From Candidatus Aerophobota bacterium (GTDB lineage Bacteria > Aerophobota > Aerophobia > Aerophobales > B3-G15), in contig JACUUP010000101.1 of the NCBI GenBank assembly GCA_014859225.1, positions 1 through 5,281 of the forward strand: DNA of 5,281 nucleotides, written 5' to 3'. Below are positions 322-5,281 of this stretch, piece after piece. Position numbers and translations under genes: made by a program. A model generated the notes under the pieces. That model had not been told where the DNA came from and ran no database searches. It saw only the letters and a program-made list of their open reading frames with translations. Positions within the stretch are counted from its first letter, which is position 1; every line of letters starts with the position of its first letter.

Positions 322-1704
322 ATGTTCTTGCAACGGTTTTTCAACAAAGGCCTGGCGCATAGCTCTTATCTGTTGGGAGCTACTGACACCTGTGCAGTGA
401 TTGACCCTGAGCGGCATGTTGATTCCTATATTCAGGTTGCGCGGTCCATGGGCATGCGCATTACTCATGTTTTGGAGACGCATCTTCATGCAGATTTCAT
501 TTCCGGTCATCTGGAACTTGCAGAAAAGACGAATGCTCAAATTTATGTTCCAAAGCGTGCAGAATGCCAGTTCGACCACATTGGCGTGGAAGAGGGATAT
601 ACATTTTACCTCGAACAGTTTAAGGTGCAGGTTCTGGAGACACCCGGACATACGCCCGAGCATGTGAGCTATGTGGTTACTGATACCACGCGCGGTACTG
701 ATCCGGTGTGTGTCTTTCCGGGTGATACGCTCTTTGTAGGCGATGTGGGACGGCCCGATCTCTTTCCCGGCAAGTCGCGCCAGTTAGCCTTGAAGTTATA
801 TGAGAGCCTGTATGGGCGATTACTCCAACTGCCTGATTTTTGCGAGCTATACCCGGCGCATGGAGCAGGATCACTCTGTGGCAAGGCGATTAATGCAAAG
901 GCAGTAAGTACCATCGGATATGAACGATGCTACAATGAGATGCTCCAGATAAAAGATCGAGAAAAATTTATTCGTGCACTAACGACCAATATGCCACCTC
1001 CACCTCCATATTTTAGTCGCTGCAGCATGAGCAACCGGAATGGACCCACTCTACTTCGGAATCTTTCGCTACCGGTCGGGCTGAACCCGACAGAATTTCA
1101 CGAACGCATGCAACAACCCAATACCCTGATACTCGATGTGCGCCATTATGGGGCATTTGGTGGCTGCCATATTCCTGGCTCGTATAATATTGATCTTGAA
1201 GGTAAACTTGCTACTTTTGCTGGCTGGATTCTTCCCCAACATGCGGAAATTCTCCTGGTAACTCATAACCAGAGTGCAGTAGAGGAGGCTTGTATGCGGC
1301 TCTACCGGGTGGGGCTAGATATGATTCCCGCATACCTCGAGGCCGGGATACCGGCCTGGGCAATGGCGGGTTATCCTTTGGATGATGTCCGGCAGCTCAC
1401 GCCCCAGAAGTTTTGCGAGATGCAAACCGGAGGCTGTGAGATGGCAGTGATTGATGTACGTATGCCCCATGAATATAAAAAATCGCATGTGCCGGGAGCA
1501 CTTAACATACCGGTACCCGAATTAAGAGAGTATCCCGGGCAGCTCGATCCCGGCATGCAGGTGGTACTTATCTGTAGCTCTGGACGTCGCTCGAGCCTGG
1601 GGGTGAGTTTACTCAAGCGGCACGGCTTCAAAAATATTTTCAACCTGGCGGGCGGCATAGCAGGCTACACGGTTGCCGGCTACAAGCTTGTTTCAATCGA
1701 GTAG
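322..1704 (+). CDS. cstB: CstB-like persulfide dioxygenase-rhodanese fusion
   Basis: Predicted cytoplasmic 460-residue enzyme that oxidises low-molecular-weight or protein persulfides to sulfite and transfers sulfane sulfur, giving thiosulfate. Residues 1 to about 240 form a metallo-beta-lactamase fold of the ETHE1 type: THLHADFISGH (His54, His56, Asp58, His63), TPGHTPEH (His110, His114), FPGDTLFVGDVGRPDL (Asp135) and PAHGAGSLCG. By analogy with ETHE1 the iron ligands are His54, His110 and Asp135. Residues of about 255-355 form a rhodanese fold (LILDVRHYGAFGGCHIPGS) whose active-site loop reads VTHNQSA, with no cysteine, so it is a pseudo-rhodanese. Residues of about 370-460 form an active rhodanese with loop CSSGRRS (Cys418). 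This three-domain order and length match Staphylococcus CstB (about 444 residues). The start at 322 is set by AGGAG (310-314) seven bases upstream. No signal peptide is seen. First gene of the operon with the YeeE/YedE pair. The symbol is assigned from architecture, not from an orthology test. Confidence 0.9.
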   Translation: MFLQRFFNKGLAHSSYLLGATDTCAVIDPERHVDSYIQVARSMGMRITHVLETHLHADFISGHLELAEKTNAQIYVPKRAECQFDHIGVEEGYTFYLEQFKVQVLETPGHTPEHVSYVVTDTTRGTDPVCVFPGDTLFVGDVGRPDLFPGKSRQLALKLYESLYGRLLQLPDFCELYPAHGAGSLCGKAINAKAVSTIGYERCYNEMLQIKDREKFIRALTTNMPPPPPYFSRCSMSNRNGPTLLRNLSLPVGLNPTEFHERMQQPNTLILDVRHYGAFGGCHIPGSYNIDLEGKLATFAGWILPQHAEILLVTHNQSAVEEACMRLYRVGLDMIPAYLEAGIPAWAMAGYPLDDVRQLTPQKFCEMQTGGCEMAVIDVRMPHEYKKSHVPGALNIPVPELREYPGQLDPGMQVVLICSSGRRSSLGVSLLKRHGFKNIFNLAGGIAGYTVAGYKLVSIE

Positions 1705-1712
1705 ATAGGAAC

Positions 1713-1736
1713 CTCTCTGTGCGAGCACACAGATAG
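1713..1736 (+). promoter_or_regulatory. Intercistronic hairpin between cstB-like and yeeE-like genes
   Basis: In the 53-base gap, TCTGTG (1716-1721) pairs with CACAGA (1728-1733) around a six-base loop. After one mismatch, two further pairs extend the stem. No T-tract follows, so it is not an intrinsic terminator. It could stabilise the upstream mRNA end or tune expression of the transporter genes relative to the enzyme. The downstream Shine-Dalgarno AGGAGG (1745-1750) lies outside the stem and stays free. Confidence 0.35.
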
Positions 1737-1757
1737 AGTATGCGAGGAGGCGAATCT

Positions 1758-2279
1758 ATGGATGATGTGATTATAGCGAGGTGGTCCCCTTATGTGGTGG
1801 GGGCGGGAATAGGGATTTTGTCCTGGGTAGCGTTCTTGCTCTCGAATAGACCTATTGGTTGCTCCACTGCCTATGTGCGCAGCAGTGGAATGATAGAAAA
1901 AGTTTTCCGGGGTAAAAAGGCTACGCAGAAGGCATACTACCAAGAATTCACCCCAACGGTGGATTGGGAATGGATGCTCGTTGTAGGAATCGTCATTGGT
2001 GCTTTTATCTCATCTGTTTTATCCGGTCACTTTCAGGTGCAGTGGGTACCGTCAAAGTGGGCTGAAGTGATGGGCTCAGCAGTTTCTATTCGCTGGGTTG
2101 TTGCACTGGTGGGAGGGATCGTCATGGGATTTGGAGCTCGCTGGGCAGGGGGGTGTACGAGCGGCCATGGCATCAGCGGGGCGCTTCAGTTAGCGGTAAG
2201 TAGCTGGCTCGTTTTTCTATGTCTGTTTATCAGCGGTATCATCACCGCACATGTGTTATTTGCAGGTTGGGGAGGTTAG
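1758..2279 (+). CDS. YeeE/YedE family transporter, first half
   Basis: Inner-membrane protein of 173 residues from the Sulf_transp (YeeE/YedE) family, whose members import thiosulfate or move related reduced sulfur species. I see four hydrophobic segments: about 10-29, 72-89, 111-127 and 147-168. The family signatures are NRPIGCSTAYVR (30-41) and WAGGCTSGHGISG (129-141). The latter holds the conserved cysteine (Cys133) that in TsuA-type proteins contacts the sulfur substrate. Full-length family members carry two such halves in one chain. Here the halves are separate genes, as in PmpA/PmpB-type pairs, so this protein probably acts with the product of the next gene. An in-frame ATG lies at 1740, but 1758 is chosen because AGGAGG (1745-1750) sits seven bases upstream of it. 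The stop falls four bases before the next start, which implies translational coupling. Confidence 0.85.
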   Translation: MDDVIIARWSPYVVGAGIGILSWVAFLLSNRPIGCSTAYVRSSGMIEKVFRGKKATQKAYYQEFTPTVDWEWMLVVGIVIGAFISSVLSGHFQVQWVPSKWAEVMGSAVSIRWVVALVGGIVMGFGARWAGGCTSGHGISGALQLAVSSWLVFLCLFISGIITAHVLFAGWGG

Positions 2280-2283
2280 GCCC

Positions 2284-2841
2284 ATGTTGAAGAACGTGCA
2301 TAGTCGAAAAGGTCTCCAACTCGTGCTGGGGTTGTTCATAGGTATTGCTTTTGGTTTCTTGCTCCAGAAGGGCGGAGTGACGAATTACAATATCATCATA
2401 GGTCAGCTTCTGCTCATAGATTTCACGGTTGTGAAAGTAATGCTCACGGCTGTGCTGGTGGGAATGATCGGAATTTACGGACTCCGAAGTCTGGGTCTTG
2501 TCATACTTCACCCCAAGCCAGGTTCACTTGGTGCATCGGTTGTAGGTGGACTCATATTCGGAGTCGGTTTTGGCCTATTGGGTTATTGTCCGGGTACCGT
2601 TGCGGGTGCGGTAGGCCAGGGTTCGCTCGACGCACTGTTCGGGGGAGTAGTCGGGATGCTGCTTGGGACAGGACTGTTTGCTGCTATGTACCCTATGCTG
2701 AACCGGAGTATCTTGCAAAGAGGTAGCTTCGGAACGCTCACACTGCCCGAGCTTTCCCGGGTGCATGCCTGGGTAATCGTTATTCCCCTTGCCGGAGCTT
2801 TACTTTTTATTTTATTGATGCTGGAACGAGCAGGTTTTTGA
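2284..2841 (+). CDS. YeeE/YedE family transporter, second half
   Basis: Inner-membrane protein of 185 residues and partner of the preceding gene, from the same Sulf_transp family. Hydrophobic segments lie at about 11-28, 52-75, 82-100, 117-136 and 163-180. The signature GYCPGTVAGAVGQG (100-113) contains the conserved Cys102, the counterpart of Cys133 in the other half. Together the two proteins would supply the paired cysteine motifs of a complete transporter channel. The longer frame opens at an ATG at 2251 inside the upstream gene, but GGGGAGG (2269-2275) places the real start at 2284 with an eight-base spacer. This is the last gene of the operon. Its position after the persulfide dioxygenase suggests that it supplies or removes thiosulfate or a sulfide-derived species for that enzyme. 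The substrate itself cannot be read from sequence. Confidence 0.85.
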   Translation: MLKNVHSRKGLQLVLGLFIGIAFGFLLQKGGVTNYNIIIGQLLLIDFTVVKVMLTAVLVGMIGIYGLRSLGLVILHPKPGSLGASVVGGLIFGVGFGLLGYCPGTVAGAVGQGSLDALFGGVVGMLLGTGLFAAMYPMLNRSILQRGSFGTLTLPELSRVHAWVIVIPLAGALLFILLMLERAGF

Positions 2842-3307: not shown

Positions 3308-3353
3308 TTTTTAAAGAGATTGCTGAAAAAGTCCCTCAGAATATAATTCCGTT

Positions 3354-3380
3354 CCTTGCTTACTACCTGCAAGGACAAGT
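3354..3380. repeat. 27-bp micro-insert repeat, copy 1
   Basis: First copy of a 27-bp unit (starts CCTTGCTTAC, ends AAGGACAAGT) that recurs at 3434-3460 with one difference (third base T versus C). It contains its own hairpin, CCTTGC (3354-3359) against GCAAGG (3369-3374). It abuts the left hairpin of the REP-like palindrome. Like copy 2, it is preceded by T and ends in T. Confidence 0.7.
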
Positions 3381-3471
3381 ATTCCTGCAAAAGCAGGAAT
3401 CCAGTATTTTCAAGGTATTTCTGGACTCCCGCTCCCTGCTTACTACCTGCAAGGACAAGTTTCGCGGGAGT
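3381..3471. repeat. REP-like composite palindrome inside the MITE
   Basis: ATTCCTGC-AAAA-GCAGGAAT (3381-3400) is a perfect eight-pair hairpin. CCAG (3401-3404) pairs with CTGG (3421-3424). ACTCCCGC (3425-3432) pairs with GCGGGAGT (3464-3471). Paired 'ATTCCTGC...GCAGGAATCCAG / CTGGACTCCCGC...GCGGGAGTGAC' units are a common dispersed palindromic repeat type in bacterial genomes. The right hairpin carries the second 27-bp micro-insert in its loop. Confidence 0.65.
3434..3460. repeat. 27-bp micro-insert repeat, copy 2, in a hairpin loop
   Basis: Second copy of the 27-bp unit, 26 of 27 bases identical to 3354-3380. Removing it joins CCCGCT to TTCGCGGG and restores the compact CCCGC-TTTC-GCGGG hairpin. 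It therefore looks like a precise secondary insertion into the loop and not part of the original palindrome. Confidence 0.7.
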
Positions 3472-3533
3472 GACAGAAAAGTGGGTTTTTCAGCAATCTC
3501 TTAAAGTTTAATTGACAGATTTGATGCGGAGCC

Positions 3534-3591: not shown

Positions 3592-3843
3592 ATGTTGAGA
3601 ACAACTAAAATTCAAACTTTATCTTTGCCACCGGAGATGGTGGAGCAAATCGAGAAACTGGCCAAAGAGGAGAATATGACCAAGAGCGAACTTTTCCGGG
3701 AGGCGCTAAGAGAATATCTGAGAGGGAAAAGGTGGGAGAAGATAAGAGAATATGGAGCCAGGAAAGCAGCAAAGCTGGGGATTAAAGAGGATGATGTGGA
3801 AAGACTGATTGATGAGTACCGGTCTGAGAAACAACAAAAATAA
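3592..3843 (+). CDS. Ribbon-helix-helix (CopG-type) antitoxin
   Basis: Small 83-residue protein with an N-terminal ribbon-helix-helix DNA-binding fold: strand TKIQTLSLPPEMV (about 5-17), helix EMVEQIEKLAKEEN, turn, then helix TKSELFREALREYLR. In this fold the dimer inserts its strand pair into the major groove. The charged C-terminal part (about 45-83, ending DDVERLIDEYRSEKQ) is the usual toxin-binding region and resembles that of antitoxins paired with PIN toxins. The next gene is a PIN protein three bases downstream, so this should be the antitoxin and autorepressor of the operon. AAAAGGAG (3581-3588) is only three bases from the ATG. A TTG at 3595 would have a better six-base spacing, so the start could be one codon later. 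Confidence 0.85.
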   Translation: MLRTTKIQTLSLPPEMVEQIEKLAKEENMTKSELFREALREYLRGKRWEKIREYGARKAAKLGIKEDDVERLIDEYRSEKQQK

Positions 3844-3846
3844 CTT

Positions 3847-4309
3847 ATGGTTAAAGTAGTGCTGGATACTAATGTTTTAATTTCAGCCACTGTTTTTGGT
3901 GGAAATCCAGAAAAGATACTGGATTTGGCAAGTGAAGGCAAAATTAAGCTTATAATCTCTAAAGAAGTGTTAGGAGAGCTCAAAGAAGTTCTCCAGAAAA
4001 AGTTTGGTTTTAGTCAAGAGATGGCCAAGGTGACAGCTTCTGATATAGAAGAGGTCTCTATTTTGGTTGTTCCAACCAGGAAGGTGAATGTTGCAAAAGA
4101 AAGAGGGTGATAACAGAATCTTAGAATGTGCGGTTGAAGGGAGAACTCAATACATTGTCCCTGGAGATAAACGCCATCTTCTACCATTAGGAGAGTATAA
4201 GGGTATAAAAATCGTGTCACCGGTTCAGTTTTTGAGAATCATCTCCCAGAAAAATCTTTTACACTCCAGGAACGCCATCCTTGAGGATGCTGCCCATGAG
4301 AATACATAG
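3847..4309 (+). pseudogene. PIN-domain toxin, frameshifted
   Basis: Predicted RNase toxin of a VapC-like PIN family (PIN_3, 'putative toxin component, PIN family'). The frame from 3847 gives LDTNVLIS with catalytic Asp7 and the conserved Glu44 in KEVLGELKEVL, then stops at 4108 after 87 residues. The rest lies in the +1 frame: EGDNRILECAVEG (Asp88) and YIVPGDKRHLLPLGEYKG (Asp107), ending at 4309. Dropping one A from the AAA at 4100-4102 restores a continuous protein of 153 residues, normal for the family, with all four acidic residues. The short form alone lacks Asp88 and Asp107 and should be inactive. Translation probably couples to the antitoxin, since no clear ribosome site precedes 3847. 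An ATG at 4088 with AGGAAGG (4078-4084) could start the C-terminal part (73 residues) separately. Sequencing error, real inactivation and recoding are all possible. Confidence 0.8.
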
Positions 4310-4377: not shown

Positions 4378-4405
4378 TTGACAAAAAAATATGTTGGTTT
4401 AAACT
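4378..4405 (+). promoter_or_regulatory. Promoter of the riboswitch leader
   Basis: TTGACA (4378-4383) is a consensus -35 box. TAAACT (4400-4405), after a 16-base spacer, is an acceptable -10 box. Transcription would start near 4412, about 20 bases before the first paired segment of the riboswitch, as expected for a leader RNA. The promoter and RNA together suggest a once-functional regulatory unit. Confidence 0.5.
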
Positions 4406-4434
4406 ATGTTTACAGTTGGAATCTAATCTTTTCT

Positions 4435-4520
4435 AGAGTGGAAAAAGGCAAACTGCTCGTAAGGGTAGGGCGCAAAGCTATGGATCGCTGAATAATCGAT
4501 CGCCAGGCTGCCGAAGCTCT
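4435..4520 (+). ncRNA. Cyclic di-GMP class I (GEMM-I) riboswitch aptamer
   Basis: The conserved GEMM-I segments occur in order: AAGGCAAAC (4445-4453), then stem CTGCTC/GGGTAG (4453-4458 with 4463-4468) capped by the GNRA tetraloop GTAA, then GGGCGCAAAGC (4468-4478), then UAUGG of a tetraloop receptor (4479-4483), stem GATCG/CGATC (4483-4487 with 4497-4501), and the closing AGGCTGCCGA (4505-4514). Aligned from memory to the Vibrio Vc2 aptamer, the residues that grip the ligand are kept: G20 (4447), A47 (4474) and a C at the C92 position (4511 or 4512). G at position 20 favours c-di-GMP over cGAMP. The position aligned to A43 is G. The outer P1 stem is uncertain (AGAG 4435-4438 with CTCT 4517-4520, or CTAGAGT 4433-4439 with ACTCGAG 4524-4530). 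No terminator or anti-SD switch is obvious, and no intact gene follows. Confidence 0.88.
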
Positions 4521-4682
4521 TTGACTCGAGAATTACATAAGGTATAGTTCAAGCTGACGACAAGTTAAAGCAATATGAATTCACCTTTTCTCCGCATCTT
4601 TGATCCAGATAAAGATCCCTAAAAGAACTGTCCACTTTTTTAAACATCCACTATTTTATAGATAAATCCCACGTAGTTTATC
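4521..4682. other. Region after the riboswitch, no intact gene
   Basis: The expected riboswitch-controlled gene is missing. The only plus-strand start in reach, ATG at 4575, opens a 15-codon frame that stops at 4622 and has no good ribosome site. It could be the cut 5' end of the lost gene or chance. ATCTTT (4596-4601) pairs with AAAGAT (4611-4616), but no T-tract follows closely. A CTGTCC-type motif lies at 4626-4641. On the minus strand, weakly transposase-like codons may continue across stops from the remnant at 4683. Confidence 0.45.
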
Positions 4683-4931
4683 CTACATTTTTTTATTCCA
4701 ATCCAGCAACCCGATAAGCAAGAGAACTATACCTTGAGTTCTCTTGGAAAACCCTTCGCCCTGGTGGGAGTAGCGCTCTTTGGGAATCCTACTAACAGGG
4801 GATAAGTCCAGGTAAAAAAGCTTGATAAAAACATCCTGGAAGAGGGAGGGAACCTTTATTCTCCGTAAGGCAAACTCATTCTTTACAAACTCCTGATACT
4901 CTTTGTGTGCCCTTGCTGCAGGTACGCGCAT
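4683..4931 (-). pseudogene. Second transposase N-terminal remnant
   Basis: Minus-strand frame of 82 codons. The start at 4931 is fixed by AAAGGAGG (4938-4945) six bases upstream, although the open frame reaches back to 5003. The product runs from about residue 27 as SLFQDVFIKLFYLDLSPVSRI, then KERYSHQGEGFSKRTQGI, then LLIGLLDWNKKM before TAG. From memory, the pattern 'LDLSPVLPLL..RYS..GRP.K.Q.GI.RSL' is the N-terminal part of a group of DDE (IS4-like) transposases several hundred residues long, so this is probably a truncated, diverged relic. Reading past the TAG in the same frame gives KLRGIYL and more stops, consistent with decay. It differs from the HTH remnant at 2981-3238, so two insertion sequences have decayed here. 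If the recognition is wrong, it is a small unknown gene with a strong ribosome site. Confidence 0.5.
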
Positions 4932-4958
4932 TTTCGGCCTCCTTTGGCTCTTTAGGTG

Positions 4959-5001
4959 GCCTCCAACATGGGTTTTTTGCCATTTATGCACCAATGGAGG
5001 C
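4959..5001 (-). promoter_or_regulatory. Leader inverted repeat upstream of the second remnant
   Basis: GCCTCCA (4959-4965) and TGGAGGC (4995-5001) are perfect seven-base inverted repeats 29 bases apart. They lie upstream of the minus-strand start at 4931. In the minus transcript the second arm is TGGAGGC, a Shine-Dalgarno-like sequence that the stem would hide. It may be an IS end or a leader hairpin. Confidence 0.3.
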
Positions 5002-5003
5002 AA

Positions 5004-5281
5004 AAAGGCAAGTTGAAGCTAAATTTTGACGTGGTTCAAACTTCTGTGAGATAGGTTAGTATCTTTCTCATAATTGTTTTACCTTTTAGCGGCTTGCAAA
5101 AAAAACGATTACAATAAAACATGAAGCTGAAAATTAAGACCAGGAGAAGGTGAAAAGTAGGCAGGTCGGTTCAGCTTTAGATAAAGGAAGTTTCTGAAAG
5201 CGTTAAACAATTACTTTTTCCCAAGTGGGAACTTCCAGGGAAAACCCCATCTAACTTTTTGGGGATGATGAAAATATCCCT
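5004..5281. other. Terminal region without recognisable gene
   Basis: Neither strand carries an open frame with a credible start that I recognise. The palindrome TTCCCA-AG-TGGGAA (5218-5231) is the only tight dyad. TACAAT (5110-5115) resembles a -10 box but has no -35 box at the right distance. This may be intergenic DNA or more insertion-sequence debris. Confidence 0.4.

Follow-up and report, generated by a model that had tools for sequence, protein, structure and literature searches.

What is a riboswitch aptamer doing where no gene follows it: has it been parted from the gene that it controlled, or does it now act alone? The locus that raises this question lies in an MAG of 1.8 Mb in 273 contigs, Aerophobetes-like to judge by its order-level relatives, and the window analysed here is the whole of one of them, contig C234 (5281 nt). 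The initial annotation had described a well-conserved GEMM-I aptamer behind a promoter, with no intact reading frame in the sense direction, and had offered both answers. The comparison set consisted of 16 related genomes of the order (17 with the genome itself); the next nearest genomes are related only at the domain level.

The aptamer proved to be as described. The sole cmscan match in the window was to RF03167 (c-di-GMP-I-GGC), at 4438-4516 on the plus strand (62.3 bits, E 2.2e-13; gathering cut-off, 59 bits), and the same segment scored 64.9 bits against RF01051 (c-di-GMP-I; gathering cut-off, 35 bits), so that the covariance search suggested earlier placed it above the family threshold in both cases. 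The GNRA loop (GUAA) and the UAUGG are retained, as are, by alignment, the equivalents of the ligand-contact residues of Vc2 (G20, A47 and C92). A G at position 20 specifies c-di-GMP, and an A is found there in the cGAMP types. Since the contact residues are kept, the predicted ligand is c-di-GMP and not cGAMP, which is disfavoured by the G still present at the diagnostic position. The host genome encodes five GGDEF domains. Over six copies of the subclass, 98.7% of the structure cells in the three-way junction of P1, P2 and P3 were paired, with two-sided changes in two helices. Together with an extended P1 (AGAG/CUCU) that is common to the closest subclass, the element covers 4435-4526 (+). 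As far as its sequence can tell, this is a genuine c-di-GMP sensing RNA, for which binding is predicted.

The state of the aptamer is less telling than its identity. By Rfam score it ranks in the middle of the 33 order copies, and at P1 pair 13/94 it has a G-G mismatch, whereas all 32 other order copies carry C or U13 with G94. The broken pair alone proves nothing, because one relative with a good terminator likewise has a broken pair, in P2; decay of the aptamer was thus set aside as weak proof of gene loss. The preservation noted in the initial annotation is real, but the present selection that it was held to suggest finds no support, one conserved pair being broken.

The promoter-like TTGACA-16-TAAACT at 4378-4405 (+) is not significant by itself, since similar matches are frequent by chance (9 found versus 6.5 expected). 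Among the order copies, 16 of 32 have TTGACA in the 90 nt before the aptamer, compared with 0.87 expected from shuffles, and it stands at exactly -60 both in the window and in the paralogue on contig C219. This enrichment speaks in favour of the aptamer being transcribed in these lineages, and the promoter box proposed earlier appears credible.

The c-di-GMP-I family is present in most genomes of the order, in up to six copies per genome; the genome under study has one further copy, that on C219. The conserved 3' flank that characterizes the window's subclass was found in Candidatus Aerophobetes records and otherwise in scattered single matches from unrelated organisms. Our literature search for riboswitches in Aerophobetes, an uncultured lineage, yielded no paper. 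In 23 of the 33 order copies, a terminator hairpin (-11.5 to -22.5 kcal/mol) with a T run ends within 67 nt of the aptamer. Such a terminator is missing from the second aptamer of each of two tandem pairs, from copies near contig ends, from G002b, G004a and G006, from the C219 copy, in which the hairpin after the aptamer is weak (-7.5), and from the window. Sense genes come after the terminators; read from sequence, their products include secreted proteins as well as pilus-like, HD-domain and response-regulator ones. For the closest subclass, 258-471 nt separate the aptamer from the first ORF downstream. In the two tandem pairs, each in a different relative (L045:2704-2977 and L062:841-1061), the first aptamer has a terminator, and no more than about 10 nt part the second from an ATG, an arrangement which suggests two-step control, of transcription and of translation.

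In 15 of the 23 terminator-bearing copies, the P2 3' strand (aptamer positions 21-37) can pair with the 5' arm of the terminator, and no more than 6 of 200 shuffled arms paired as well or better. The arms of the subclass relatives G007c, G007d, G015a and G015b pair with P2 no better than shuffles, which counts against an antiterminator there and limits the model to the main class. In the relatives, the nascent aptamer would either bind c-di-GMP or lend its P2 3' strand to the 5' arm of the terminator; binding would free the terminator, and the gene would be turned off. We infer that the order-level copies are OFF switches. The survey indicates that Aerophobetes employ c-di-GMP-I switches in which aptamer and terminator are mutually exclusive, and that the genes behind these include pilus-like, HD-domain and response-regulator ones.

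In the window, DNA similarity to the closest copies spans 4430-4526 and then ends. The next stretch, 4527-4682 (+), occupies the position of the relatives' terminator and leader, and no homologue of 4527-4757 was detected in the 17 order genomes; the terminator is missing from its usual place after the aptamer. A perfect 12-bp inverted repeat (AAGGTATAGTTC; 4539-4550 and 4724-4735, 173 nt apart) lies inside the unmatched stretch and may mark the ends of a small insert, or may be due to chance. In agreement with the initial annotation, no plus-strand ORF of at least 60 aa occurs in the 765 nt remaining after the aptamer; since the window is the whole contig, the absence of a gene holds only to the contig end. 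The 15-codon frame at 4575-4622 exists, with no visible Shine-Dalgarno sequence, and the search for a plus-strand gene after 4520 produced only this frame and another of 40 aa, which runs antisense to the transposase remnant. That remnant, the N-terminal part of a transposase, is encoded at 4683-5003 on the minus strand, antisense to the riboswitch transcript. It shares 62% identity over 58 aa with an ORF in one relative, and in another the homologous DNA precedes ORFs, one of which weakly matches DDE transposases; the sequences of the relatives thereby bear out the relic reported earlier.

Probably, then, an aptamer of a widespread Aerophobetes c-di-GMP-I regulon has here been cut off from both its expression platform and its gene. 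A rearrangement, in which the transposase element was perhaps involved, would have replaced everything 3' of about 4526, most likely leaving the decayed transposase fragment, to judge from its position. The remaining transcript, if it is still made, may bind its ligand, with no terminator or gene on which to act. The copy would thus be a decapitated riboswitch without present function, from which the gene was removed, and not a new regulator. Between the two answers offered at the outset, loss through insertion or deletion has good support in the terminators and genes of the relatives and in the transposase remnant, whereas the stand-alone RNA has gained no positive support. Against severing, G002b, G004a and G006 have genes despite the lack of a clear terminator, the terminator arms of the closest subclass pair with P2 no better than shuffles, and the order genomes searched, none of them of the same genus, contain no orthologous intact locus. 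The 110-aa ORF located 420 nt after the C219 copy was rejected as a model of the lost gene, as it has no relative in the other 16 genomes.

Several other explanations must be weighed against severance. The mid-range score of the aptamer counts against the severed reading and, together with the conserved promoter box, favours a functional RNA that binds c-di-GMP, works by itself or in trans, and is selected without a gene in cis. The same orphan arrangement was found in no relative, however, there is no terminator to delimit a small RNA, a conserved pair of P1 has been lost, and the fold of 4412-4700 is no better than that of shuffles (z 0.21; for 4412-4560, z -1.03), which leaves a structured stand-alone RNA unsupported; a role of this kind appears improbable. 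Alternatively, the riboswitch might control, by way of a very long leader, a transporter gene expected past the contig end, downstream of the structured element described below as motif A. The stretch from the aptamer to the contig end contains no detected plus-strand terminator, most copies of motif A are followed by solute-binding protein genes, and the leaders of the subclass relatives are themselves long (258-471 nt). We nevertheless give little credence to this alternative: the gene would be more than 760 nt off, beyond the transposase remnant, among the order-level c-di-GMP copies inspected, none is followed by motif A or by a solute-binding protein gene, and without a terminator there is nothing obvious to switch.

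The junction at about 4526 might also be an error of assembly, the true locus having both terminator and gene. The fragmentation of the MAG (273 contigs) and the repeat that the contig end shares with contig C22 would be in keeping with such an error, but no misjoining repeat is present at 4526 and 4517-4760 is single-copy in the genome, so that we consider it quite unlikely. Finally, the riboswitch converges on the minus-strand gene at 4683-5003 and could be imagined to control it in antisense, the more so since no riboswitch family occurs in antisense more often than that of c-di-GMP (PMC9943018). The target would be a truncated transposase fragment, though, and cases of this type are regarded as fortuitous in that survey; control of this kind is very unlikely here. 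Severance of the riboswitch is thus the reading that we retain.

Additional features of the contig merit description. A pair of RHH/PIN toxin-antitoxin genes adjoins the riboswitch (3592-4309, +); its PIN frame is split into overlapping ORFs (3847-4110 and 4088-4309), while the paralogue on contig C82 is a single frame of 151 aa. Further upstream, a MITE-like stretch (3311-3505), to which related pieces occur elsewhere in the genome, consists of 20-nt inverted repeat arms (95%) flanking two copies of a 32-nt direct repeat. An operon-like set at 322-2841 (+) encodes a metallo-beta-lactamase/double-rhodanese fusion and two sulphur-transport (YeeE/TsuA-like) half-proteins.

About 600 bases beyond the aptamer lies motif A, a structured leader element (5122-5239, +) whose gene would fall past the contig end. 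We consider motif A a more interesting find than the riboswitch and worth following in its own right. The surrounding part of the window (5114-5281) matches several stretches of the same genome that precede transporter genes. A covariance model built from eight copies of 5122-5239 detected, at E values up to 1e-4, 99 copies, spread over 16 of the 17 Aerophobetes-order genomes, and 100 other genomes subjected to the same search gave no match; no Rfam family matched the element. In an alignment of 70 copies, 90.3% of the cells were paired and two-sided changes occurred in 106 cells, versus 39.4 +/- 7.2 in shuffles, figures that are biased towards the model, to which the alignment was itself fitted. 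Sliding the partners reduced the pairing to 24-60%. The second half of the element forms a further hairpin (mean z -2.43). Motif A is very probably a structured RNA family, and apparently an undescribed one.

The first ORF after motif A mostly begins 5-90 nt downstream. Among 63 such ORFs, the families SBP_bac_1 (30), SBP_bac_5 (12), DctP (4), Peripla_BP_4 (2) and TctC (1) were recognized, so that, provided the families do not overlap, about three quarters are solute-binding proteins. The diversity of their substrates speaks against a riboswitch for any single one. Apparently, motif A is a cis-regulatory leader that precedes many kinds of solute-binding-protein genes in Candidatus Aerophobetes and, if confirmed, it would represent an RNA device shared across transporters, with no Rfam family of its own.

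Two other conserved sequences occur near motif A. A leader-like stretch (GGGGGTGATGAAAATATCCCTGATT...) follows it in the window (5251-5281, +), where it reaches the contig end, and recurs at L106:2917-2945, L107:25-55 and in L108 and L103; in L106 it is directly upstream of motif A, and in several relatives it adjoins transposase remnants. A short repeat around TGTGAGATAGGTTAGTATCTTTCTCATAAT (window 5028-5088, +) is intergenic in several order genomes, once (L117) just upstream of motif A, and is possibly an operator or an RNA hairpin.

In 62 of 70 copies, the loop of the first hairpin of motif A reads AGGAGGTGA or differs from it by a single change. This sequence is complementary to the 16S tail GGATCACCTCCTT, which was read directly in seven order genomes. 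A start codon at a usable distance after AGGAGGTGA was present in only 7 of 68 copies, and a leader ORF at this site is therefore unlikely. Binding of CsrA was rejected, as CsrA was found in none of the 17 genomes while the controls were positive. Motif A would display, in its hairpin loop and far ahead of the genuine start, a full Shine-Dalgarno sequence against 16S, and the displayed AGGAGGTGA might dock 30S subunits and thereby stabilise or prime the mRNA. Docking of this sort is a guess, to which we attach rather low probability. If motif A is confirmed, a Shine-Dalgarno sequence would be used for something besides initiation at its own site.

How, then, do the two elements compare with known systems? 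The aptamer is a full-length match above the curated cut-off to the GGC variant of c-di-GMP-I (RF03167, of clan CL00126 with RF01051), and shares with these riboswitches the GNRA loop, the UAUGG and the ligand-contact positions; in contrast to them, it is accompanied by no expression platform and, as far as the contig extends, by no gene, and has one P1 pair broken. For its surroundings there is a precedent. A survey of antisense riboswitches found 54 that face transposases, and attributed them to random insertion where another gene was formerly controlled (PMC9943018). The window likewise has an antisense transposase in place of a gene, and its arrangement is thus a known outcome, probably that of a regulatory RNA stranded by genome rearrangement. 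It differs from the surveyed cases in that only a fragment of the transposase is left and the relatives do not reveal the lost gene. "Orphan" riboswitches in MAGs should accordingly be examined for loss of their platform before any new role is put forward.

For motif A, the nearest known idea is, by analogy, the STAB-SD of cry3A, a stabiliser of mRNA at which the exonuclease RNase J is blocked (PMC4113751). The RNase J part of that model fits motif A poorly: no match to RNase J rose above the cut-off in any of the 17 order genomes, and blocking of this enzyme by motif A is unlikely. Motif A also departs from STAB-SD in showing its Shine-Dalgarno sequence in the loop of a covarying hairpin, followed by a second hairpin. 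What the two have in common is a Shine-Dalgarno sequence that stands far upstream of the start codon and apparently does not direct initiation.
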